In this document: positions 21,547 through 37,105 of the stretch, piece by piece
Layout of the letters: the number at the start of each line of letters is the position of its first letter
How positions within the stretch are numbered: position 1 is the first letter of the stretch
From: Gracilariopsis chorda
Lineage: Eukaryota > Rhodophyta > Florideophyceae > Gracilariales > Gracilariaceae
DNA: 64,000 bases
Assembly (NCBI GenBank): GCA_003194525.1
Contig: NBIV01000153.1
Span: 1-64,000 of the forward strand
Direction of reading: 5' to 3'
Position numbers and translations under genes: made by a program
Notes under the pieces: generated by a model
Databases searched by the model: none
Seen by the model: the letters and a program-made list of their open reading frames with translations, nothing else
What the model was told of the DNA's origin: nothing

Positions 21547-21947
21547 GAAGGCTCTTCTTACCCTTGTCCTTGATATAAGGAATCCTTCGACAAGGAATTC
21601 CTTGCTTCAAGGAACAAACCTCAGTCCACCGTAACGGTAGCCTTATTTGCTCTTTGCATTGGGCGTTTATTCCTTCCTCGGTACAAGAAACCAGAACGGT
21701 CTACCGTTGCAAGAAAAGCTTGAAATTTAGTTAAATTTTATGGGTCTCGATTGGCCAGCAAGGAACGTTTATCTTCCCCGCCACAATAAAGTACACGTAC
21801 CGTACCAATTGGTCTTTCTGGACCGTTTCATTTTCTTCTTCCCGACAAAAGCGCATAAAACGCTAGAAGCGTTCTAAACATTTACGAAGCATCTTTGCAA
21901 CTAGCCATCTCCTTCTTCTTCCAACTATCGCCATGACCCGCCATTAG
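21547..21947. other. Spacer
   Basis: Contains a few small hairpins around AAGGAATCCTT near 21580-21610; no gene seen. Confidence 0.4.
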
Positions 21948-22468
21948 TTGACAAACAAGCAAAAGCTTTCCACCCAGAAAGAAATAGCTAAACGCCAAAG
22001 GTCACTGCAGTCGGTCCGTTTGGATACAATTGCTTTATGGGCTTGGTCCGAGCACAATTTATATTTTACGCCTTCCAAACTGGTCCTTTCTCGCCTGTGT
22101 TCTGCTTCAAGCTCTCTTGTCATTCCGTAGAACAACTCTAAAAAGAACCGACGACCTGCACAGCCAGCAATTGAGGAAAAGCTGGTCGTTTGGATTAACG
22201 ATCAGTACATCGCACGTCGGTGTCTGACAGGCCAAATGGTCCGTAAAAAAGGAAGGCGTCTACTGGCTGAGGTTAATGGTTTGCTGCCCGAACACGAGAG
22301 GTGGACTCTGAAGTTCACCACAGGATGGCTCTGCAACTTCCAGCGTCGTTGGAATTTGAAGTCCAGGAAAATATACGGAGAGGCCGGAGACGCGGATGAG
22401 GAGGGACTAGAGCGTGAGCTGCCTGTACTTCGTGCTCTGTGCGCACAGTACGGGCGTGAAGATATTTC
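21948..22468 (+). pseudogene. Tc5/CENP-B-type transposase, DNA-binding N-terminus, interrupted
   Basis: One plus-strand frame runs from 21948 to 22468 broken only by a TAG at 22128-22130. It reads a first helix-turn-helix (T-Q-K-E-I-A, then L-W-A-W-S-E-H-N-L). After the stop comes the CENP-B/Tc5 DNA-binding block: A-I-E-E-K-L-V-V-W-I-N, L-K-F-T-T-G-W-L-C-N-F-Q-R-R-W-N-L and Y-G-R-E-D-I. In this family the next residues start the DDE nuclease (D-E-T/S-G), but the LTR begins exactly there. Such proteins are pogo/Tigger/Tc5 transposases or host genes derived from them. The catalytic part is not found after the LTR. Confidence 0.7.
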
Positions 22469-23288
22469 TGTGGTGCAATGCCCCAAACGGGAAAAACACC
22501 AAAAAACGTTCGGGATGTTCCTCTCACGAGGTGAACCCAGTTGGGTAGAGCCCTCCCAGAGGTGTTACGGCGAAGCCGGTTTGTAAGACCAGTGACACCT
22601 GTCGTGACTTGCGCAGGGAGGTGAAGGCGAAGAATCGGTATCCTCGTGAGCGGGTTTGATCCTCAGTAGAGGTATGTTTCCATGTAAGTGGGGATGTGTG
22701 AGCGGGTGCACACAGGAGGGCCGCAGGTAGCGGGATGTACTATCCTGAAAGGGGGAAGGGAGGAGAGTGAAGGGAAAGGAGGAAGAGTGGGCGAGGGTGA
22801 GTCGCGAGAGCGACGAACAAATACGGTAAACAGGACTCCCTATACAGGGCGAAACACCAATGTGATTTGAACAATTATACTCCCAAGGATGGGTCTCTTT
22901 AGGTGTGCAAGGGGGTTGGAGGTCCCGTGATTCACGGCGTTTCTCTCCAAGGAGAAGTTGAGAACGCGCGGAAGCGGCAACAACTAGAGGCAATTCCCCA
23001 GGTTCGGGGTCCCTTGTTGGGGAATGTTTACTGGTGCGACGGCAGTGCGCCGTCGCACTAAGTACTAGATTCCCAGAAATGGGTGTGAAAATTAATAAAA
23101 TCAACTAAAATACTCCACATTTCGTGGCAACATCCACTACTGTGGCCAACCGCCAATTGACCCAAAACTGTGTCCCACGTGTCCATATCCACCATTGTGG
23201 GGCGTAGTTCATATAAACACTACACAACCGATAATATCGGGAAAGCATTCAAGTACCAAGAATCCCTCCCTGAGGGCGTTGCACTTCA
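22469..23288. repeat. Solo LTR, second copy of the hairpin-rich family
   Basis: About 820 bp aligning end to end with 3089-3897, with the same TGTGGTGCAATGCCC start and GGGCGTTGCACTTCA end. It shares the long GTGCGACGGC hairpin near 23033-23057. The flanks are ATTTC on the left and TGATG on the right, so there is no target-site duplication. Compared with the first copy, many differences are CG to TG or CA and break stems. Confidence 0.85.
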
Positions 23289-25710
23289 TGATGCTTATCT
23301 TGCAGTTCGTGATGACTACGCAGCGACGAGGCAAAATGTGTATGAGCCGAGAAGTTTGAAGCACACCGACTTTGTGGAGTTCGCGGTACAAAGTCGCAAC
23401 GTTCATGACTCTGCCAAGAAAATGTTTCTCACTCTCATCGGACCGGATTACATATCGTATTCGGACTCCGAGCTCCGTAACATGTCTCTCAGAGGCCCTC
23501 CACGTCAACTCTATCTTATGGCAAGAGTGGTGGACGTAAAGGACCGCGAAGAAGACAGGCGTGTAAGAGACTTTTGGAAGGTTTATTGTAAAAGGGAAGG
23601 GCTTAAAAGAATTCCCCGTAACGTGTTGCTATCTGTCTTTTGCAAGTCCCGTGTTCTGGGAGCAACCAAGAAATCTTCCGCTTTCCACACGTATCCTTGA
23701 ACCGACTTTGAAATGGTCATTGGGTTGTCTATGGTGCAACAGATTGCCGTGGATAAGAAAGGAAGTGGTAGGAAGAGGAAATGGGGCATGGCAGCTAAGA
23801 AGTTCTCGAAAGTGAGTTTGTCGGACATGACCCAGAGTCAGAGAGTCGGGTATTGTGTGCATCTGGTGACCAGGGCTTGGGATTGTTTCGCCCAATTCCT
23901 CGGGTTTCTCAACATTGAGGTTATGATCTTGCCTTACATTCGACTCTACTATATCAGTGTAGTCTTCACCGATATCGCACAACGCTCCATGGGCTTCCAA
24001 CACAAAGATTGTTCCAAACAGTTTGTGGAGGAGAAGAACGTCACCACCGTAGAAGAAAACGTTACCAAATTGGCATGGAATCTGTCGGACCCAGTGGATA
24101 CAGCGTTTCGCCTTTGTGCCAAAGAATAACTTGGTGACCTTTCTAATGTGGTGGTACAAGAGAAACTGTTCGACATCTCTGCTCCCAGCAAATGGGATGC
24201 CCTCAAAAGGTTCATCATCACGAGAACGAGACTTTTCACTCTGCGGTTTGAGATCTTTAGTGAATCTCTTGTCACTACGGTTCAAGAGGCCATAAAGCCT
24301 CTGAAGCTCATTGCATTTCAAGGAAGCAATGTCAAAGTACATCAAGCTGTGAAACCAGAGACCGCAGAAGACGTTGACATCATTATGGAGCCGGTAAAAA
24401 CTGTTACGGCTGGTGGTGGGAACGAACGTGCTGAGCATGTCAAAGGTGGAGATCAGGGTGAGTTGGAAGAATTGGAAGAGATAGAGATGGTAGAGGATGC
24501 GGAAAGTGGTACTGCGGAACGTGGTACTGCACCAAAGGCTACTGAAGAACTGCAGACAACAGCTTTGTCGCAGAACTTATCGTATGATGTCGAAGGCACG
24601 GGGATTCGTGCACCACCGTACCCTACGACTTTGGATGATGTAATATCTTACAAGTATTGTGAGAAGGAGATGTCCCGCAACTTCCGTCTCCACAACTGCA
24701 AGTTCGAAAATCTCATCGAAGTTGACGAGAACAAGTCTGGCGAAAGCGAGGTATCTATTGAAGGAAGGATACAGTTCTTGCTTTCCGATCCGCCATATGG
24801 GACTCGTTCTGAGCGTCGTTTGGAGAACAGCGAACACGATATTCTGACAGAGAAGGGCATGAGCAGGTCAGCGAGGAGGTCTTCAAAGCTTCTACGTCCT
24901 GGTGGACATATTATACAGTTCTGCTCATGGGATCAGGTACCGTTGTGGCGGGATATGCTACGGAAAGTTACCTACATGGATGACTCTGATACGATGCGTT
25001 ACTCCTTTGTCGTCAACGAACAGCCCCTCCATTTCGTACGGTCTTTAGGTAATACGACTGGTAACATTGGGAGAAGAAGTTGCCGGTTGCACCAGACGAC
25101 AGAATACGATGTACATGCTGTTCGTTCTGGAGTTCCTTATGCACAACAACACCGGATGGTCAACTATGAGAACTTCAATTATGTTGCTTCACGATACCCA
25201 GCGTATCATGCGATCATGGATCAGGTGCCGCCGATGTCAAATAGTGAGATGCTCATGTGGTCTGCGAAAAACCCGGGTGGGAAGTATACGAGGAAGAGGG
25301 TGCGACCAAAACAGAAGTGTAGGGCACTGTTGAAAGAGCTGATTTGCAGGTTCAGTCAGCCAGGAGACCTCGTGGTCGAAATGTTTGCCGGAACGTTCTC
25401 GACAGCGATAGCGTGCATGGAACTGCCCAAGCATCGGAAGTTTGTGGGGTGTGAACCGGACAAAGCTTGCTTTGAACACGCCAGGCATGCCGCTATTGTT
25501 CGCTTCGCATCCATAATACGCGAAGGACACACGGATATTGAGAAGAGCCAGGAGCTTCGAAAGATGGCCTATTGTGTTTCCTTTGCATTCCCAATTAGAA
25601 GAAGCAGGCACACCGTGTTATGGAGGGCTGTCGACGGATTTCCGCCGTACCAAATTCTTCCCCACACCTTGTCGACTTTCTCTCCACTTTGGGGCAAAGT
25701 GAAATTCTAG
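23289..25710 (+). pseudogene. Beta-class DNA amino-methyltransferase with two in-frame stops
   Basis: A single plus-strand frame of about 807 codons starts at the LTR junction and ends at 25710, interrupted only by TGA (23698-23700) and TAA (24127-24129). The first 300 codons match nothing I know. After an acidic Glu-rich linker comes the methyltransferase: L-L-S-D-P-P-Y-G (motif IV, about 24781) and L-R-P-G-G-H-I-I-Q-F. Then come a C-terminal L-K-E-L-I-C-R-F and G-D-L-V-V-E-M-F-A-G-T-F-S-T-A-I-A-C (motif I, SAM binding, about 25366) with V-G-C-E-P-D. Motif IV before motif I is the beta-class order; D-P-P-Y favours N6-adenine over N4-cytosine methylation. Both catalytic motifs look intact. 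The SET gene starts 23 bp downstream. The N-terminus is lost at the LTR. Confidence 0.75.
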
Positions 25711-25733
25711 GGAAGTTGGGAAGGAAGAAAGCT

Positions 25734-26413
25734 ATGGATGGATGGCCGAGGGAGCTGCAGGGAAGAATGAATCTGGAGAACATGAAGTCTCTATTGGCAA
25801 TGGTGGCTGTGCAATATGGGTTGCGAGTGGGCAAGTCTACTATTCGTCCTGAAAAGGCTGGTGTTGGAGTGTTTGCAAGTCGTCGAATTGCTGCAGGAGA
25901 GGTAGTGTGCTATTTCTACGGGACGTTGGTTTATCATGACCTTTCGAATCGGAAAGAAGTGCACAAGACCTACGGGGAGGGAGTCATGGGTGTGACGAAG
26001 GATCGCTTCCGGAAGTATGCGGTGGAGATAGAAGTCTACAGTCAACAATTCCAATCACTTCCGCATCGAAAACAGCTGACGAATTGGCATGGAAAACAAG
26101 CAAACCCCATTTTATGGATGGTTCCTGCCCCTTTTTGTATTGCGGGGTATATGAACGATCCAAAGTACGTGGAAGGGGAAAAAAGTTAGATGCCATGGTG
26201 GATGGCCTCGTGAAAAAAAGGGAGGCTAATGTGCGAATGAAACGGAAACCGGGAGTGGGACGAACACCAGGGAGAATAACGGACTACAGACTTATTAAGA
26301 TGGAGGCGACAGCCGACATAGAGCGAGGAGAGGAACTCTTCGCCAGATACAGTGATGTTTATGACTGGCAAACCCATTTGAATGTGGAGGATGGAACGAT
26401 AGTCATTGATTAG
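25734..26413 (+). pseudogene. SET-domain lysine methyltransferase, frameshifted
   Basis: The start ATG at 25734 lies 23 bp after the methyltransferase stop and opens M-D-G-W-P-R-E-L-Q. The SET domain follows: G-V-G-V-F-A-S-R-R-I-A-A-G-E (SET-N), Y-F-Y-G-T-L-V-Y, A-G-Y-M-N-D-P-K-Y, then, after a frame change in a G4A6 run near 26180, R-E-A-N-V-R-M and I-K-M-E-A-T-A-D-I-E-R-G-E-E-L-F-A-R-Y-S-D. SET enzymes methylate lysines, usually on histones, with SAM. The A-N-V in place of N-H-S is common in divergent SET families. No pre-SET or post-SET cysteines are seen. The close spacing suggests co-expression or an ancestral fusion with the upstream gene. Confidence 0.75.
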
Positions 26414-26950
26414 TTTGTTGTTATAAACTTTTCTCCACAGCTTGGCTAAAGGATGTCATTTATTATGTGAACGGATGTCTAGTCCTAACTTAGGACAATA
26501 TTACTTTTCAGTAGGGATAGAAGATACAAAGCGATATAGATGTGACACAGAAACGTCCATTTTCGGTACCACCGAGGATTGTATTTTCAAGATTTCACAA
26601 AAAGCAAAGATTGTTGTGCGCATCGGGTGGCGAGATTTTCCCGGAAAACACACGGCGTGCGCCAACCCAGAGCGTCACCAGCCACTTGCGCAAGAGTTTT
26701 GAATCCAAGAATCGCGCCGAAGGGAAAGAAGCGAGGCCCGGGAAGGGGTAGTGCGGCGAGTGCGGCTAAGACGCGGCGAAAGGCTATTGAGGGGCGAACC
26801 ACGAGTGGAACGAAAGCGAAATCATGTGTTCCCAGGAGTGGATAATCGGGGAGGAGGTCAAGAGAAGATGCTTCGAGGAGAGGGGGAAGAGGTGGGGCAA
26901 AGAACGTCGGATCCGAGCGCACGACGAGTGAGCGCACGACGAGTGATAAT
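26414..26950 (+). other. Possible eroded 5' end of the next gene
   Basis: Frames at 26442-26702 and 26542-26751 overlap in different phases and read protein-like stretches, including T-Q-S-V-T-S-H-L-R-K-S-F and a basic G-K-K-R-G-P-G-R-G tail. They could be the frameshifted N-terminus, perhaps a DNA-binding region, of the open frame that starts at 26951. No family recognised. Confidence 0.3.
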
Positions 26951-29128
26951 TTGAAGGCTGATGCCCATGCACATGTAGCACGTGGGAGAGATTCGGTTCG
27001 GGGACAGCGATCTATGCCTGGATCTGGTGGTGGGGTGGAGGGTAAGAAAGGGTCGGTTGCTAGGAGAAGGGAAGAGGTACCAGATCAGGGAGGGTTGAAA
27101 GCAAATGCGCGGGTCGAAGACCGAAATAAAGATGAAGAAATGCCGGAAATGAAACAAATAGAAGAGGCGGTTGCGCTGAAGAGAGGTGGGGCCCCAAGGG
27201 GAAATCAATATGGAGGAGAGGTAAATGTTCCTTTGGTAGAGAGTGATGGGGACGAAGAGGATCACATTGTGAAGGGGAGATGGACGAGAGAGAGAATAAG
27301 GGAAGGAGTGGGACGCCGCTCTGATTTAAAGGAAACGCGAGAAGTGGAAGAAGTGGTCAGAGCGACGGATGGAATACAGGAAGCATGGAAAAGCGGAGAA
27401 CGTACAAGCACCCCGGTACGGGCGCGAAAGATGCAAATGGCTCAAGACTTGGAAAGTGATAAAGGAAGCAGAACGCCGCGGACTCCGGAAGGAATGCGAG
27501 AGAGGAAACGAAGTGTTCATCGGTCGCCAAGTGAGCCTGCTGAGGAGCGAAGGCGGCCTGTCAGTATTTTGGGAGATGCAGGGAATAACGACATTGGTGT
27601 GATGTTTCGATCTTCGTTAGTTGAGAGGGTCAATATGTTGAAGGCAGAATTCGGGCAGGTCAAAGGGGACCACTGCATGCTAAAGATGTCGCTGAAGCGG
27701 CCGCAAGAGGAACTGAAGAGGATGAGAGAAGAGATGAGCGAGAAGAATATATTGATAGATAGCTTACAGGAATGGAGGAAGGTGGGAGGAGGGGAGAGAA
27801 AGGGATCTGAAGGTGAAAATGGCTTGAGATGGCGTAGGAAGTATGTAGTTGATGTGCAAGAGAGTTTTTATGGGTTTGCCAGGGTATTATATGATAGGTT
27901 GTTGTACTATGCGAAGGTGGAGGTATCGGAGTTTTGTTTTACTTCGGAGGGTGTGGAAAGAAACTGGAAGGATCGATGCAAAGTATTGGGGAAGGGAAAA
28001 GAGGGGAGTGTGTTTGTTGTTGGAGGAAAGGAGATTGTACGTCGATGTACGTTTGAGATTGCGTCTGAGATGAGTTCGTAAACGCTTTCGTCGCTAGGAG
28101 GAAGTAATGAACTATTGAAGTACTTGGATGGCGTTGAGATTGAGGGGGAGAGATGGGAGTCGATTCGTGAAGCGGGTAGGAAGGGTCAATGCGTGCGGGA
28201 GGTTGTTGCAGACAGGTCTTTGAGGCAATGTATGAAGCAGAAGTTGAGTGATTTGATTGGGGTTCGGAAGCGTGCGGCACGGGACAAAATGTTTTCGTTG
28301 GTTGGATATGACTTGATAGCCAGACGTGTGAGACCGCGAGAGAGGACGGAGCTAGACATTGAGTTGAAGAAACAGTTACAGGAAGTAAAGACGAAGTTCA
28401 TGGGGAATGGGGAGGCGAGGAGTGGTAGGTTATGTTCTTGGAGGATGAAAACAATCGAAGGTCTTACGTATTCTGGATTTCAGGTTGCTGGGCGGCTGAG
28501 AGAGTTTCGTGAATGGGACATGTACTTCAAGAACGGGGCTACGGTGGAAGTGTTGGAAGAATTCATGGGATATGAGTTGGGAACGGAAAGGGAGGGAAAG
28601 ATGGAGTACGATGATGGGAAAGTGATGCATTTGGCTCGTTTGGATGCGTGGATCGGATGTGTTTTGACGGCAATGGACACAGATGTGGGGCGTGGAGGAA
28701 GACGGCAGTTGTTATTTTCTACGTTGTACGGTGAGTATCTTCCGCTCGCGGTAGAGAGTATACTTGGTGTGGCGTGGGAGAGGGTGAGAGAGCTATATCA
28801 TGAAGAATTGGAGAATGAAGGTTGCGATGAGGGTGACCCGCGTTGTATAGCTGTAAATGGGGATAGAGAAGCGAAGGTAGCACTGTGGATACCTTCGAAG
28901 CGGAAAATATACTTGGCCGTGAAGGATGAATACTTTTTGGAACATATGACGAAACGGCTGGGAGGGGTGCTGGACTGTTATGTTGCTGCGTGTCGGCCAG
29001 AAGATGTGTGGATGAAGAGGTTGGTGAAAGAGAGTCGAGATGTTGGGAGAGGTGAGGCGACAGATCATGTCGAGGCGCAGTGGGAGGAAGGTCTGGGAGG
29101 TTATGAAGAACAAGTTGAAGAAGAATAG
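26951..29128 (+). pseudogene. Novel coiled-coil protein with one internal stop
   Basis: One plus-strand frame of 725 codons is open from 26951 to 29128 apart from TAA at 28079-28081. The N-terminal third is very basic and Arg/Glu/Gly-rich, like a disordered nucleic-acid-binding tail. A coiled coil follows (about residues 215-275, M-L-K-M-S-L-K and E-E-L-K-R-M-R-E-E-M), then a globular-looking second half with D-V-Q-E-S-F-Y-G-F-A and M-H-L-A-R-L-D-A-W-I-G. I recognise no family. It ends 22 bp from the convergent stop of the transposase and shares its strong plus-strand G excess, so it probably belongs to the same mobile element as an accessory gene. The start codon is uncertain. Confidence 0.5.
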
Positions 29129-29150
29129 TGTTACTGGTGGAACGGGTGGT

Positions 29151-32100
29151 TTACTGATGTGTTGTAGATTGTGGGGCGTAAGGCTTTGAAGCGGTGTCAC
29201 GATAGAATCGGTTGATGTAGAAACGATGGAAGCGCCAGTGAAGACGAGGAGTGAATGGCGGAGCGGGGTAGTTTTCTCGAATGACGTAGACTGCACCTAG
29301 AATGGAGGTGGAAGGAATGAGGCCGAACCAAGGAGATACGTTTTCGTCGGTGGAAGGTTTGGAGATGGGCACTGGATCGGGGGTGTGGTCCCGCTCTTCA
29401 TCGGTTGACCACCGAAGGCAGACGCAGTTGAGGGTGATATTGACATTGTCGCGAGGTGGTACGAGTTCAAGGAACTGTACAAAAGCGAATTCCTTTGTAA
29501 TGCGGGTGGAAGAGCTTGAAGAGGGGGAAGGAAGTTTGAAGCGAGCTAGGGCGATGAGCTTGGAGACCCATACAGTGGGTGTGGGTGGAGAGGAGGATTT
29601 GGTTCCTGCGACAAGGATATGGGAAAACTTTAGTGATCTGGAAGGTCCGAATGATGGAACGGCGAAGATGCGCTGGAGGAGAGGGACGGAGGGTTCTTGG
29701 AGGACGAGTTCGTTTCGTTCTTGGTTGTAATTGTGTAGTGTTGGGATGTAACCGCCGACGACGTATGCGGAGTTGACGAAGGTGAGACGAGTTCGATGGA
29801 GGTTGTTGGGTGAGGGATTTAGCTTGAGATATTCGATGGAAAGGGAGACGAAGGAATGAAGTGTGGTGTGACCTAGTTGTGAGATGATGGAGAGCGTGTC
29901 TGAGGAGAAGAGTTCTTGAAGAAATTTTGGACTTGCGTTGGGGGTGGATGCAAGGTACTTTGCGGCTGTGAAGATGTCATAGAAGGAAAGATGTTTTCCG
30001 TCACGTACGAAGGAGGGTTTGCGTGGTTGCGGTTGAGTTTGAGGTCGAGCATGGGAGGATAGGGAAGGGTCTGCGGAAAGTGGATTCCAGTCTTTGAAGA
30101 GATTGGAGCGGTCTATAGCACGGATGGTTTCTGTATGGGCGGTGGCTCTTCGCTTGGAAGTTTTGGAGTAATGTGATTTGAAGAGGACATGGGCGTGCTC
30201 GAAGATGCCTGCGTCGTTGAAGTGGAGACCCCCGTATCGGCGTATGTCTTCGACGATGTGGTCGAGGAGATGGAACTTGAGGGTGCCGAGGTGGGAGGAG
30301 TGGTAGGGTCCGAGAATGGATGCGGCTGTGACTTTGAAGGATCTGATGTGTTTTTCGAGAGATAGGAGGGAGGTGTCTGTCCATTCGGGGGACGAGTTGT
30401 ATCGCATAGCGGAGAGAAGGAGGTCTGTGTACTTGGTGAAGACAGAAGTGATGGGGGAGGAGTCGGTTTCTTTGCAGCATCTGTCGAAGAAGGCGCCGAT
30501 GAAGGGGAAGACCATGTCGAGGGTGCGGTAATCCTTTGCTTCCAGCATTACTCGTAAGCCTTCTGTGGTGAAGAAGCCGTTGAGGGCTTGGGAGTTGTCG
30601 GTTGTTGAGAAGTCGATGTGGAGGCCGGGTGCGGGGGAGTCCTTTTCGATGGCGGCGAGGATGGAGTTGGAGTGTTTGAGGATTGAGGTGCAGATGGAAT
30701 GGAAGGAACGTTTGGTGTTGTTGGGGCCGACTGTGGTGAAGAGTGATTCGGAGCGGAGTCGTTCGATGGCGGTGGCTTTGATGAGCTTTGAGACGCCGAG
30801 GTGGAAGTTGTGAAGGGGTTCGAAGGCGAAGATGATGTAAGAGGAGAGAAGGGGAGTGATGTTGAAAATGGCGTAAGATTCGAAGAGAGAGGGATACTTT
30901 GCGATGGAGAGGGACTGGAGGGCTCTGGTTGCTTGTAACTTCTTGGTGCGAGCGACTTTCGGCTTGCGGGCGAGCTGGGCTTCGTCGGACTGGCGAAGGA
31001 GAGCGGCGTGTTCTCTGCGTTTGTTTAGAGTTTGGGATTGTGTGCGGAAGTGGATGGGGTTTGTGTTGAGGGAGAGGTGTTCGCGGGGGACGGTACATCT
31101 GGGCCAGGGGTGCTGTGGTCGTGTTCCGTGCGAGATGGCGAGGATTTCCTTTGCCTCTGGGATGTCTGCGCAGTAGCTGGAGAGGATGGGGTGGCAGTGG
31201 CGGAGTACACCGTGTGCGTCACGGAATGAGAAACCGAGGAGGGCGGAAAAGAGGAGTGGGTTGAAGATTGCAGAGATGGCGCGCTGAATGAGGTCCATTC
31301 TTGTTTCGCGTGGGATGTTGGAGTACGAATGTGGGATGAAGTCTGCGTGGTCGGGGGAGGAAGAGGGGGAGAAGGAGGTTGGGAGGTACCGAGGAGGGTG
31401 GGGTTTTCGGAGATACACTTTCGGTGGAAAGCGTCTGAGAAGTTGAGAAGGGTGATGTGAAGGGGATATGAGTTGATGGAGGAGCTCTTGAGTGAGGTGG
31501 CGGACTTATCGGAGTATAACTGGACGAGACCGACGAAAGATTCCATACCAGTTGTTTTGGGGGTGTGCCAGACGATGTCATTTATGTGGCACTGCATGAT
31601 GGCTTGTTTGAAGGCAGGAACAACTTTGTTTCCAAAGGCTGCGGCCATAGGATGGGCGAAGGCGGGGGTGGAAGAAGAGGAAAGGGAAGATTGGGAGACG
31701 GGTTGGAAGAAGGTGTTGTTGAAGTGTGCGAGAGCGAGTTGTTGCTTCAGGACGTCTGTGGTGCGTTTTTGGAAGAGGGTTGCGGAGAAGGAGTTGTGCT
31801 CGTCGGTGAGTGTGAGAGGGAGGAAGCCGGTGGAGCTGATTCGTTCCTTGAGGAGGTATTCTTGGAGTGCGAGGCACTGCTTTGCGGAGGAGATGGATTT
31901 CTGGAAGGCTGACTTGGAGAAGTCAGGGTGGTTGAGAAGGGAGATGAGTTGGTCGGCTTTGCGTGTGCTGAAGGAGGAAGCGATGGAGGAGATGCAGAGA
32001 ACGAGTTGCTCGAGATGGCCGTTGTTGAGGAGAGGGGAGGAGGATTGGGACGAGGTATGGGGAGGTGGGTTTGAGGAGGAGACTGAACAGAGGGCGTGAC

Positions 32101-32602
32101 TTGCCATGTGGTGTGCGTCTTCTGTTTGGAGGGAAAGGGAGGCCTGTTGGATGTGATAGGGTTCATCTTCGGCGAGGGGGACGTTGTCGGAGGGGCGGTG
32201 TGAGGGAGTGGGAGGAGGAATGGTGGAGAGGTTTGGAACGGATTCTCGTCGCTTGGGCCTTGGTGGGAACTGGACGGGAGCGTTGGCGGAGGAGGAAGGG
32301 CGTTTGTCGGGGGTGAGTCGATGAGGGCACCTGCGTTGGTGACTCTGGAGAGAGAACGCGGTGCGGCCATAGAAGGTGCAACGGGGATGGCAACAGGGTA
32401 TCATGGCGGGGGAAGGAGAACGGAGAACGGGATGCTTGGAAACAGAGAAGGGAGGGTGGTGGCGGAGTGGGATATCGGGGAGCGTAACATTATGGCGCAC
32501 GTAGATGAGGTGGTGCACGTGAGGCAGAGCGTCTTTTCGTAGGGCGTGGGGTAGAGCATGCGATGCAGGGAGCAGGTCGGGAAACGGATGATAGAAAGCC
32601 AA
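29151..32602 (-). pseudogene. CACTA/Plavaka-like DNA transposase, one frameshift
   Basis: Two minus-strand frames overlap: 32602-31025 (525 codons) and 31418-29151 (755 codons). The first has an N-terminal zinc-finger-like C-C-H-P-R-C ... H-Q-R-R-C-P and a long Ser/Pro-rich stretch, ending usefully at N-P-T-L-L-G. The second resumes at Y-L-P-T-S after a one-base shift near 31390. It carries C-H-P-I-L-S-S-Y-C-A-D-I-P-E, P-W-P-R-C-T-V, F-E-P-L-H-N-F-H-L-G-V and K-F-H-L-L-D-H-I-V-E-D-I-R-R-Y-G-G with I-F-E-H-A-H. These blocks and their order are those of CACTA/Plavaka or the related KDZ transposases, which move DNA by an RNase H-fold nuclease. The codon use is pyrimidine-rich, mirroring the plus-strand purine excess. 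Terminal repeats were not found. Confidence 0.7.
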
Positions 32603-32624
32603 AGCTATTTGGTTATGTAAACGC

Positions 32625-32661
32625 TATGTATCTATTCTATCTATTCTATCTATTCTATTTT
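32625..32661. repeat. TCTAT microsatellite
   Basis: Repeated TCTAT units (about 10-bp period TATTCTATC) just upstream of the transposase frame. Confidence 0.6.
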
Positions 32662-32880
32662 GCTATTTGAAGGGGCACTCGCTCAGGACCAGTAGGATTT
32701 GGATTCCACGTGCACCTGAGAGGGTAGGTATTAGTGGAGTCTGGCGCTAGTTTTACCTCCAAAGAACCTGGAAAATGTCTAGTATACTGCTAGTCTTTTG
32801 TCCCAAGCAAAGTAGCTCTGTGCTATATATGGAATTATTTTGAGAAATTTGATTCATTCAAAATTGGGTTTGAAGAGTCG

Positions 32881-33126
32881 TTATTCGTTCATTTTAATTT
32901 TTTGCCTTTTGAATGCCAAACTAGCATAAAGAGAAAACCGACGCGCTCTGGAATACATCTCAGTGCGCTCATTCATGTATTTCGGTGAGATGTTGTCCAT
33001 GATGAGGTGGCTACGAGCGTTTAGAAATGCTTCTATGCCCTCCCAGAACAACTCGGATAGTTGCGAATAGTACTTGCCCAGTAGAAGCTCTAGGTCAAAC
33101 CATCTTGCGGGAGATGCTAATCGACG
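32881..33126 (-). pseudogene. PIF/Harbinger transposase N-terminal fragment
   Basis: A minus-strand frame from 33126 to the stop at 32883-32881 reads R-R-L-A-S-P-A-R-W-F-D-L-E-L-L-L-G, Y-Y-S-Q-L-S-E-L-F-W-E and Y-M-N-E-R-T-E-M-Y. This matches the helix-rich region that precedes the DDE domain in Harbinger transposases, and the corresponding stretch of the copy at 60.5 kb. The preceding residues continue in another frame (33126-33140) and the catalytic part is absent, so it is a small relic. Confidence 0.6.
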
Positions 33127-34161
33127 TTACACAACGCATGTCACCAGCAACGGATTACAAGAATATCTGTTTCTAGACGTCACTCTTGATGTGGTAGGCC
33201 ATCCCAGAGCTAATACCATACGAGAGATGTCGTTCTTCTGAAACCTGAACAGCGCAAGGCATGTAGCATGAATAACGCTTTCGAACTTGAAAGAAAAGGA
33301 GGTAGATGAAACATGTCGCTTGCGTATTTCGTAGCGCCCTATTTCTTCTGTTTCAGATACATACTGAGTGGCAATCGCGAAAAGGACGTGGGAAGAAGTG
33401 GAAGGCGTAACTGGACTTGTCTGTCTGCGAAGCGCAATGGTAGGTAGTATAGTTGCCTACCCTACCTGTCGAGCTTTGCTCTGGGAGTGGGAATGATCGG
33501 ACTGCCTACCGAGAGGCATCTTTGGGAAAGGGATAGTGTTGCTAGGGTAAGGGAGACCTTGGTTGGTAATAATCACAACTCGAACTGATTTCTTACTGCG
33601 TAAAGAGTCGTCGGTGATTTCATCATATTCGCAGGTCCCGCCTTTTCTGATTTTCTGGCTTACAGATATCGTCATATGTGGTTGTGAATTTCTCACTGCG
33701 TAAAGCCTAAACTGTTATTTTTCTCACATCATCATATTTGCAGTCTCGGACACATTTCAACATAATTTGATGCTTATGTCAAAGATTATTTTGATCATTT
33801 GAAGAGGACAATCACTGCGCAACGTGCAAAACATATTTCAATAATGCAAGCTAGCAAGACACAGTTGCGTTAATCAACGCAAAAACGCAACGCTAGTCCA
33901 AAACAATTTCAAGATAATATGCCGTTATCTATGCCTGCTGATGTTTTCGACATGGAAGATGAATTTATTCGAAAAAATTGACCTATGGTGGACAGCAGTG
34001 CAGGATAGGTTTCGTTGTTTTCTTCAAATCGTAATGTCAATCATTCCTTTGTTTTTCTCTAGGAATTACTTGTTCAATGAACAATACCATGTTCCCCAGT
34101 GAGTCTTCTTCTGGGTCCTATTAACGTCCAGATACCAAATTGGAAATCGAAAAACTAATGA
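33127..34161. other. Spacer, no supported gene
   Basis: A 79-aa minus-strand frame at 33457-33696 has no motif. A hexamer-like phrase CACTGCGTAAAG recurs near 33595 and 33695 but no clear element is defined. Confidence 0.4.
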
Positions 34162-34910: not shown

Positions 34911-35622
34911 TCATCTCAGCCTATCAATGGCGTCTTTGAAACTTTGTGGTGGAGATGAGCGACTAAATCCCTTCATTTCAAGACTATGAGACTCTAAAAC
35001 CGTTTTCTTTATAGAATAATTTAATCTCCCAATCAACTTTACAGCCTTTTCACTGGAAGTTGGTGCATAGGCAAGCACTATTTTCGCAACAATTCCATGT
35101 TTACTCATAAACTCAGTAGAGTGGTTGCCGTGAAGCAAGTTGTATTGTCAGAGATGATCAGATGAGGGGTCCCAAAGAAAAAGAGTATCTCCATATGCAC
35201 GATATCGAAAACGACTTGAGCTGTGAAGTTGGGTAGAAGCCAAGCCAGAAGCCATCCAGATAGATTTTCAACTGCAACTAACGTGACCCTATTCCATAAA
35301 GTTGTGAAGGTAAATGGTCCTGCAAAGTCGATAGAAAAGATGTAAAACAAGCCTGTGAGTGAATATTTCAGTGTCTTTTTGTAGGTGGGTACGGTCACAG
35401 AAAGTCTTTATCCTTCACAACTACTCACATAGTCAATGATATCAAGATAAAACCCCTCAACCGGTACCACTCCAGAACCAACTTCTTAGGGCATTGAATT
35501 TCCCAGTTTCCAATATCCCCATAACATATCTTTAGTATTAATGGTCTAGAAGCGAAGGGAGGAATCCCTCCAAAGCCATTGGAGGTACACCTCATCAGTC
35601 TATCACTCGAAGCTCCAAACAT
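34911..35622 (-). pseudogene. Integrase remnant (gypsy element at 35-38.6 kb)
   Basis: From 35622 the frame reads I-C-Y-G-D-I-G-N-W-E, a relic of the H-H-C-C zinc domain. From 35398 the catalytic core reads S-I-D-F-A-G-P-F-T, L-V-A-V-E-N-L-S-G-W and F-F-G-T-P-H-L-I-I-S-D-N, giving two of the acidic residues. From 35138 it reads E-F-M-S-K-H-G-I, with the third acidic residue, followed by L-A-Y-A-P-T-S. Integrase inserts the element cDNA. Three frames are needed, so it is not functional. Confidence 0.7.
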
Positions 35623-36489
35623 CTTTGCATTTCGACGGATAGTTCCTCAACGTTCGGATTCTATCTCCAAGATGTCTTTTCCGTTGAGGTATCTCAGAAT
35701 ATCCTCCAAATGATTCTCCATCCTCAATGACTCCATTTCTTCCATAAGGATACAGCTTACATCATCAGATGTTTCTTTGATCTTATCAATCATGATTCTT
35801 GACAAATAGTAGGCGGCTTGGTTCTTTTTGCCTGAGCGATACGGAATCTTGAAATAGTATTTGTCTAACAAACACATCCATCTTGCAAGCTTTCCGTGTA
35901 TGTATTTCTTCTTAAATGTGTACTGCAGCGCCTTGTATTCATTAATTACTGTAAAATGATGTGTGGAAAATAATTATATCCAGATCTCTTTCAGTGCAAA
36001 TATGACTGGAAGTGCTTCACGTTCGCATACCGAATAGCTTCGTTCTTCCGATGTCAGATTTCGAATGGCATGCTGTATATGGTGCAACTTGTTATCTTTC
36101 TTTCTCTACGCAAGAAAAGCTCCAAACGAAATATAAGAGGCATCTGTCTCTACGACAAATGGAAATTCGAAGTAATGGAATACGAAAACAGGTGGTGTAA
36201 TCAACTTCAGCTCCAGTCCCTCAAATGCACTATGCATATCTGGGGTACAATTCCAATTCTTATTTCCAGATGTAGCTTAATGAAGGGCTGGTGACGTTTC
36301 TGCGAAGTGTGATATGAAACGACGACAACACAGTGCTAGTCTCAGAACCGTTATTAATTCGGATGCATTGCATGGCTCAGATGTTTTCTGCATTACTGTA
36401 CTGTTCTCCGGATCTACTTCAATTCCATTAAAATCAACGATGTGGGCGAGAAGTCGCGCTTTGGACTGACCAACGCTTTATTTCGTAAC

Positions 36490-37105
36490 CTAAATCTTCA
36501 ATTCATAAAATGCAGTTTGGTCAAACACTTGGAAGCAATGATCAACACGTTCTTCGAGGTTCTCCGAAATCTTTATTACATCACCCACATATACCATAGA
36601 AAAGTTTTGTCCTTTCAAAACAACATCCGTCATTCTCTGAAGAGTAGCAGGGGCCCTCATAAGCCCAAACGGTATGCCTTCAAATTGGTAGGTACCGTAT
36701 CGGCAAACGAAATTTGTTTTCTCTTTGCAATGGTCGGTTATTCTCACTTGCCAGTACCGAGAGACTAGTTCTAGAGTTGTGAAAATAGTTGAATTTCTTA
36801 AGTCATCAAATATGTCTTCGACCTTTGGTGAAGACCAGCGATCATCTTTTCATATCTGCATTCAAGGCTCTATAGTCTACACAGAAGCAAGGCCTGCCAT
36901 CTTCCTTCAGTGCAATATCAACGGGAAGTGACCACTCAGAAGCAAATGGGTTTGTTATACCAATACGCAGCATATCAGTAATTTCGTTTCGCACAACATC
37001 ATTATATTTCGAAGACAGTACTTTCACGCTACCGTAGCCTGGTGTTAGAACATCAAACTCGAACGAATATTTCACCCGAACATCAGATTGGCGTAGATCT
37101 TCCAA
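36490..37105 (-). pseudogene. Reverse transcriptase remnant with mutated active site
   Basis: The frame 37105-36842 reads the fingers region (M-L-R-I-G-I-T-N-P-F-A-S-E-W-S, F-C-V-D-Y-R-A-L-N). The frame 36747-36490 reads G-I-P-F-G-L-M-R-A-P-A-T-L-Q-R and then V-Y-V-G-D-V where active enzymes have Y-x-D-D. The first catalytic Asp of the pair is Gly. Between the two frames lies a gap of about 95 bp in another frame. Confidence 0.75.

Follow-up and report, generated by a model that had tools for sequence, protein, structure and literature searches.

A Plavaka-type DNA transposon of Gracilariopsis chorda carries a DNA methyltransferase fused to a SET domain

The DNA examined here, i.e., positions 1 to 64,000 of contig NBIV01000153.1 from Gracilariopsis chorda (hereafter the window), contains at 23289..32943 a 5'-truncated copy of a Plavaka-type DNA transposon, family A, which was delimited by blastn against ten other copies in the genome (91-95% identity). 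Methyltransferase and SET sequences, an accessory open reading frame (ORF) and a convergent transposase make up this one mobile element. The methyltransferase and SET sequences belong to a single three-part protein of about 1,040 amino acids (aa), composed of a novel N-domain, a beta-class DNA methyltransferase and a SET domain. We propose, with a probability of roughly 0.55, that this protein is a two-layer writer, marking both DNA, at an amino group for which N6 of adenine is the likeliest candidate, and a histone or chromatin-protein lysine, and that its role on the transposon is likely to be anti-silencing.

An earlier reading made from the sequence only had suggested that these genes form one mobile unit, and had proposed searching the source genome for other copies. 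Such a search (91.3 Mb in 1,081 contigs) recovered copies with the same gene order, a common terminal inverted repeat and 2-bp target duplications, and the suggestion is borne out. Because only the best candidates were scored, all copy counts given here are lower bounds. The search with segment 23289-26500 yielded at least 41 match rows; counting that of the window itself, 38 covered nearly the whole segment, those from elsewhere at 93-96% identity. With the transposase-side segment 26900-32600 at least 38 rows were obtained, pieces included. Ten copies were picked for detailed comparison because they matched both segments, so that gene co-occurrence is measured not by these but by the genome-wide profile linkage described below. 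All ten aligned from 23289-23291; seven did so unbroken from 23289 to 32943, which is the right end of the element, C4 aligned to 32637, and C39 and C60 had internal deletions. The sequence-only reading had said that transposase copies consistently lacking the methyltransferase and SET genes, with element ends between 26.4 and 26.9 kb, would count against a single unit. None of the ten copies ended in that interval, and the methyltransferase was present beside 19 of the 20 near-complete matches to the transposase segment (window included), the exception being C22.

Terminal alignment of the copies placed the right terminal inverted repeat of the window element at 32921..32943 (plus strand), where the window version ends GAGAAAACCGACG. 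Other copies continued leftward to a terminus mirroring the right one, over about 4.1 kb in C6, 6.5 kb in C230 and 7.9 kb in C46, and the two ends are paired by terminal inverted repeats of about 23 bp (CGTCGGTGTTCTCGnnATGCTAG); C4 lacked the extreme right end. From end to end the elements measured 4.7 to 17.6 kb, the longest copies (16-17.6 kb) bearing further genes. The left-end and right-end searches, in each of which the best 40 candidates were scored, had 16 contigs in common, so that, with C6 added, both ends could be compared in 17 copies. Eight of these 17 were flanked by a strict 2-bp target duplication. As a control, left flanks were compared with the right flanks of other copies, and these matched in 25 of 272 mismatched pairs. 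With the copies treated as independent, the probability of obtaining eight duplications in 17 by chance is about 1e-4 at a background rate of about 0.1, or 3e-6 at a rate of 1/16. C230 would provide a ninth duplication (CT/CT) once the mutation in its right end is taken into account, and C314 has a 3-bp ATA/ATA beside a shortened end. Target site duplications of 2 to 3 bp, as found here, are one of the features by which Plavaka elements are recognized.

Linkage was also evident when the genome was scanned with protein profiles, which gave 114 Plavaka, 150 N6_N4_Mtase and 85 SET matches. A convergent methyltransferase was found within 12 kb of 72 of the 114 Plavaka matches, when chance alone would give about one, and there was one further case in the other orientation. 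Within 8 kb there were 71 cases, every one convergent. Likewise, 59 of the 85 SET matches in the genome were located no more than 1.5 kb downstream of this methyltransferase. Several other repeats adjoin the element in the window, and unrelated repeats might have come together there by chance. We give that explanation virtually no credence, because order and spacing are the same in dozens of copies, and the linkage counts refute it.

The sequence-only reading had treated SET as a gene of its own, beginning 23 bp after the methyltransferase. That gap proved to be a frameshift inside one fused gene, and a separate SET gene is ruled out as an artefact of the window copy, the fused frame being unbroken elsewhere. 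The whole protein was contained in one stop-free frame of 1065 aa in C745, C332, C53 and C241, and in C48 in one such frame with a single stop (among the best 44 of 404 candidates). The distance between methyltransferase and SET was 373-430 bp in all 59 scored pairs. In addition, C637 contains a relative (C637:7503-10619, L088; protein P0005) with an intact 1039-aa frame and 35% identity over query residues 20-1034. It is from this constant spacing, the uninterrupted frames and the intact end-to-end relative that we conclude that there is one protein. Families A and B share the start MHGTGE. In the fused protein used as query (P0001) an N-domain of about 430 aa is followed by the methyltransferase at residues 501-739 and SET at 865-1027. 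The N-domain gave no Pfam match, and no match to sequences in the PDB at E values up to 10.

A prokaryotic or viral origin of the whole fusion was considered and rejected: the relatives found in IMG/VR (five loci), GTDB genomes (one locus) and phages (166 records) corresponded to the methyltransferase part only, and when IMG/VR was scanned again, now with the window part as query, no relatives were found. Short peptide patterns, between two and six per scan, served as queries, so that these scans were not exhaustive. Identity as a defence system was also rejected: besides one weak match to mads_2, almost every match listed for a defence library was to an ordinary restriction methyltransferase or an orphan one.

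In the window, the copy is broken as well as 5'-truncated, having been cut at a solo long terminal repeat (LTR)-like repeat. Every feature listed in the sequence-only reading was present there, at the coordinates given, as an ORF or Pfam match, and the limits it gave (23289-32602) come close to those supported by the copies: the left edge agrees with the copy alignments, and the right end lies at 32943. The left arm is missing from this copy. The fused gene occupies 23289..26413 on the plus strand (tblastn of P0001). Roughly its first nine codons, and the whole left arm, were lost at 23288/23289; the start codon is present in other copies. In-frame stops occur at 23698-23700 and 24127-24129. 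By tblastn the gene runs in frame 1 to about 25,692, in frame 3 over 25,662-26,183 and in frame 2 from 26,093, so that the frame shifts near 25.67 kb and again near 26.1-26.18 kb. The methyltransferase domain is at 24772..25482 (plus strand), within an ORF at 24130-25710 that matches N6_N4_Mtase in Pfam (PF01555, E = 7e-14). The SET domain was placed at 25858..26352 (plus strand) by projection through the alignment from C46 186033-186527, and the window ORF at 25599-26189 gave a weak SET match (PF00856, E = 0.004).

The accessory gene, at 26654..29128 on the plus strand (tblastn of P0003 and P0004, and the ORF list), is the one that the sequence-only reading took for a coiled coil; it is in a single reading frame with a stop at 28079-28081. 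Its part at 26846-29128 is one long ORF in a single frame without a family match, and a match of the accessory protein to ZapB was weak (E = 0.3). The transposase gene converges on it from 29151..32623 on the minus strand (tblastn of P0002), with a frame change near 31388, and comprises ORFs 29151-31505 and 31025-32623. It matched PF18759 with an E value of 1.6e-9 in the window ORF and 4e-21 in P0002, in which a CPRC motif was visible by eye; Plavaka transposases are recognized by C(2)C and H(3-4)H between the catalytic residues. What the sequence-only reading called a CACTA/Plavaka-like transposase is thus Plavaka, which has been related to CACTA/EnSpm (PMC12730594). Both convergent genes lie in a tract with a GC skew of +0.51 (window 26880-32620). 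At 4-fold degenerate sites in C187, the transposase coding strand was 55% C and 7% G, and the C-terminal part of the accessory gene, which faces the opposite way, was 43% G and 4% C. At all ten Plavaka loci examined (L029-L038) the coding strand of the transposase was rich in C. The asymmetry tracks the DNA strand, not transcription.

What the fusion might do depends first on its predicted chemistry. In beta-class amino DNA methyltransferases, DPPY precedes the S-adenosylmethionine (SAM) motif. The sequence-only assignment to this class agreed with what we found, i.e., the PF01555 match and, in both P0001 and the window, DPPY followed by FAGTFSTA, which we take to be motif IV followed by SAM motif I. 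DPPY, a form of the catalytic motif (D/N/S)PP(Y/F), was present in families A and B; C637 reads DAPT at this position, outside that pattern, although SAM and SET motifs are retained. NCBIfam matches were weak, far under the cut-offs, and were to adenine-specific or unspecified DNA methyltransferases. Sequence relatives in the PDB were DpnA, CcrM, MboIIA, RsrI and the N6-adenine enzyme M.BceJIV. This set (CcrM, RsrI, DpnA/HpyAVI, MboIIA and BceJIV) resembles the fusion in having DPPY first and the SAM motif last, and in sequence and fold, but its members are prokaryotic, lack this N-domain and SET, and are 13-19% identical to it in the Foldseek rows with E ≤ 1e-3. There were 18 such rows, all in the N6-adenine group, and the first cytosine-N4 title came at rank 31, a result biased toward methyltransferase hits because the alignment behind the model comprised five viral or bacterial methyltransferases; the model was itself weak, with a mean predicted local distance difference test score (pLDDT) of 51 and a predicted template modelling score (pTM) of 0.56. 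SPPY is found in most N4-cytosine enzymes and DPPY in bacterial N6-adenine enzymes (PMC8885841). From DPPY and the nearest relatives, the predicted DNA product would most likely be N6-methyladenine (6mA) rather than N4-methylcytosine (4mC).

Within the SET part, GVGVFA, GYINDP and GDEIFSEYG were read by eye, their motif roles being presumed. The best PDB matches were KMT2C, 2B and 2A at E values of 0.02-0.13, and among the Pfam matches listed at E ≤ 1 for P0001 and P0005 there were no pre-SET or post-SET domains of the H3K9 type. KMT2 enzymes we take to be of the H3K4 type, and these matches would be a hint, only, that the SET domain is of that type as well.

To estimate selection, dN/dS (the ratio of nonsynonymous to synonymous substitution rates) was calculated with codons at stops omitted and with alignment across frame changes. 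When family B (C745) was compared with 16 copies of family A, the N-domain and the methyltransferase each gave 0.15-0.20, and the linker and SET gave 0.16-0.27, the 0.27 coming from one copy only (C60). All three parts of the fusion are under purifying selection. Between C187 and seven family-A copies, values were 0.23-0.35 for the transposase, and 0.14-0.17 and 0.28-0.33, respectively, for the C-terminal and N-terminal parts of the accessory gene. Over the parts that could be aligned, identity to L040 was 99.1-99.9% in nine other family-B loci, and this near-identity implies recent movement of the group. Purifying selection, together with these recent, near-identical copies, suggests that the fusion serves the element. 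Synonymous divergence between families A and B was 0.53-0.70 for the transposase, about half that of the methyltransferase-SET gene (0.93-1.37); the lower figure may reflect a mosaic origin or a constraint on composition.

In the mechanism that we favor, the transposase would move the element by cut and paste. The fusion protein, acting at the element DNA or close to it, would methylate an amino group of the bases (N6 of adenine being the most likely) and also a lysine residue, either of histones or of some chromatin protein. The most likely benefit would be anti-silencing, i.e., the chromatin of the element would be kept expressible. We lean this way because 6mA is linked to active promoters in early-diverging fungi, where it is reported around the start sites of expressed genes (PMC13297926), and because the SET domain has its best, if weak, matches in KMT2. 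Both marks could instead be used by the element to silence itself and so limit its copy number, like a built-in repressor. There are precedents for such self-restraint: in bdelloid rotifers a captured bacterial amino-methyltransferase reportedly works with SETDB1-type enzymes to silence transposons (PMC8885841), and retrotransposons are reported to have captured cytosine methyltransferases (PMC5890265). We nevertheless think it unlikely, in that selection on selfish elements usually favors escape, the best SET matches are to KMT2 and not to H3K9-type enzymes (if only at the E values given above), and the fungal distribution of 6mA points the other way.

Several observations weigh against a dual writer with an anti-silencing role. 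No methyltransferase was found within 12 kb of 41 of the 114 Plavaka matches, and 77 of the 150 methyltransferase matches had no Plavaka match within 12 kb, so that the fusion may also travel in other ways. Some of the matches without a partner, of either kind, lie near contig ends. A SET match at E ≤ 1e-3 was present within 1.5 kb downstream of only 59 of the 150 methyltransferase matches, and the SET profile scored P0001 at 22.3 bits, just under the Pfam cut-off of 22.4 (P0005, at 26.8 bits, was above it). The strict target duplication was absent from nine of the 17 both-ended copies, C6 among them. The termini of the element, CGTCGGTG..CACCGACG, are unlike the TGT..ACA of PlavakaA and the CATCA..TGATG of PlavakaB (PMC12730594), for which reason we use the name Plavaka-type and regard them as a further terminus class. 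Shortened copies of the C37 type, in which both SET and the accessory gene are incomplete, have multiplied too. With DPPY lost in C637, DNA methylation would not be essential in every clade, and the DNA part of the protein in that clade may serve for binding only. Levels of 6mA in Dikarya are low and disputed (PMC13297926). Lastly, the anti-silencing direction is a guess, since the same enzymes could silence.

Methyltransferase matches that stand without a detected Plavaka, which amount to about half of the total, would also fit a fused gene that was captured from the host, or was simply a stray, and that hitch-hikes as passenger cargo. This we judge very unlikely given the convergent arrangement of the close pairs (71/71), the shared ends and the strength of purifying selection between families of the element. 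C637, a 15.9-kb contig that bears the fusion and has no Plavaka match, shows that fusions do occur apart from a detected Plavaka. A KDZ transposase was considered as their carrier and set aside, there being no match to PF18758 in the genome; this profile was silent in the control too, so that absence of KDZ is not shown.

The longest copies provide a view of the left arm that is missing from the window, with its genes at 175528-183400 in C46. In C46 (175528-193119), a minus-strand gene diverges from the fusion gene, and could be read as frames of 536 and 806 aa. In C39 the frame is open across the junction of these two (615 codons, no stop), giving a protein of about 1,300 aa. By eye its motifs include DGFHRVSVLLEL, which is ParB-like, and HTD...VFHAR...RYH, which is 2-oxoglutarate (2OG)-dioxygenase-like; searches of Pfam, PHROGs, PDB sequences and phages gave nothing significant. 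PE-type TET/JBP proteins are barely visible to sequence searches, and Plavaka elements are among their carriers (PMC12730594), so that the left-arm protein could possibly be a distant TET/JBP relative. Beyond this gene there is a 400-aa frame with six hydrophobic stretches. Family B has a counterpart at about 55-71% identity, as do copies C4 and C24 at 85-91%. Its presence in these identifies C6 as a deleted copy, and a 3.8-kb stretch of C46 that contains it was accordingly rejected as a nested insert. If the dioxygenase-like protein edits the same marks, as it may, the dual writer of DNA and lysine marks would be joined by a divergent ParB-like/2OG-dioxygenase-like eraser or oxidiser, and the element would carry a complete epigenetic toolkit for establishing a heritable chromatin state of its own, without dependence on the host. 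We put this extension forward tentatively, as a possibility rather than an expectation.

Just upstream of the fusion gene, family A has an inverted repeat with arms of about 66 nt (C46 182925-183082; L013 2076-2719), present as two units in C230, and family B has a palindrome of about 86 bp at the matching place (L049, about 271-356). These are possibly a shared promoter or binding site. Dam methylation times the binding of transposase in Tn10, and adenine methylation of the ends or of this palindrome could similarly license or time the transposase here, with SET methylating the transposase or another non-histone partner. The occurrence of these repeats at matching places in both families, and the fact that methyltransferase and transposase belong to one unit, which suits a role in cis, are consistent with such control of transposition. 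However, the palindrome could be nothing more than a promoter or nested repeat, no recognition motif for methylation was identified, and C637 retains the protein without DPPY; we consider this explanation quite unlikely. A candidate target motif was rejected, the GATGGAGC-type repeats of the family-A palindrome being absent from that of family B.

The repeat at which the window copy is cut (22469..23288, outside the element) is 820 bp in length with TG...CA termini, and copies of it begin and stop at these positions. Most of the listed copies are 91-94% identical, and some form pairs that share an orientation and are separated by about 10 kb (C369, C59), which suggests that the repeat is probably an LTR. 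No 5-bp duplication was seen flanking it, which would fit LTR recombination over simple insertion. An element start at 22469, suggested by the first boundary searches, was discarded, this position being the start of the solo LTR-like repeat, and the other copies continuing differently. To its left, a repeat at 21567-22467 stops at the LTR-like repeat, and an ORF with a Tc5-type DNA-binding match (PF03221, E = 4e-8) lies at 21567-22586. On the other side, another repeat (32944-33712; copies 83-94% identical) starts exactly at the right end of the element and is perhaps the target into which it jumped. Further on, at 34971-37000, there is a repeat with copies of 72-78% identity, in which minus-strand ORFs at 35105-35407 and 35647-35973 resemble, by eye, retrotransposon integrase and reverse transcriptase. 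Scans of the window with Rfam (at the gathering threshold) and for tRNAs gave no matches.

We found no DNA methyltransferase-SET fusion on a transposon in the open-licence literature, although an earlier mention elsewhere is possible. In print are TET/JBP proteins in Plavaka, and SET in HarbingerS and MuDR (PMC12730594). TET-positive PlavakaB elements, as described there, share with the present element the transposase superfamily, a DNA-modifying enzyme carried on a DNA transposon and a range of target duplications that takes in 2 bp; the present element differs in having methyltransferase-SET instead of, or besides, TET/JBP, in its termini (CGTCGGTG...CACCGACG) and in reaching 17.6 kb. HarbingerS and oomycete MuDR (cited in PMC12730594) are likewise DNA transposons with a SET lysine methyltransferase, but belong to other transposase superfamilies, and a DNA methyltransferase fusion is not mentioned in the accessible text. 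In the Plavaka giant repeats of Amoebidium (PMC11244446), the extra genes are tyrosine recombinases and clusters extend up to 50 kb, with no methyltransferase-SET fusion mentioned in the parts available. The bdelloid N4CMT (PMC8885841) is also a bacterial-type beta-class amino-methyltransferase fused to a chromatin domain in a eukaryote; however, it is a host gene located off transposons, has SPPY (N4-cytosine), and bears a chromodomain reader instead of a SET writer. Retrotransposons with C5 DNA methyltransferases (PMC5890265) are mobile elements encoding a DNA methyltransferase too, but they modify cytosine at C5, and what is accessible of that report does not mention a histone methyltransferase.

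Mobile elements with a single epigenetic enzyme (TET/JBP, SET or cytosine methyltransferases) are known, whereas here one protein combines two predicted writers, one for DNA and the other for lysine. If the predicted activities are real, the element might be a source of 6mA or 4mC, would offer a natural test of whether transposons set their own chromatin state, and would make a dual DNA/histone writer available for study in ready-made form.

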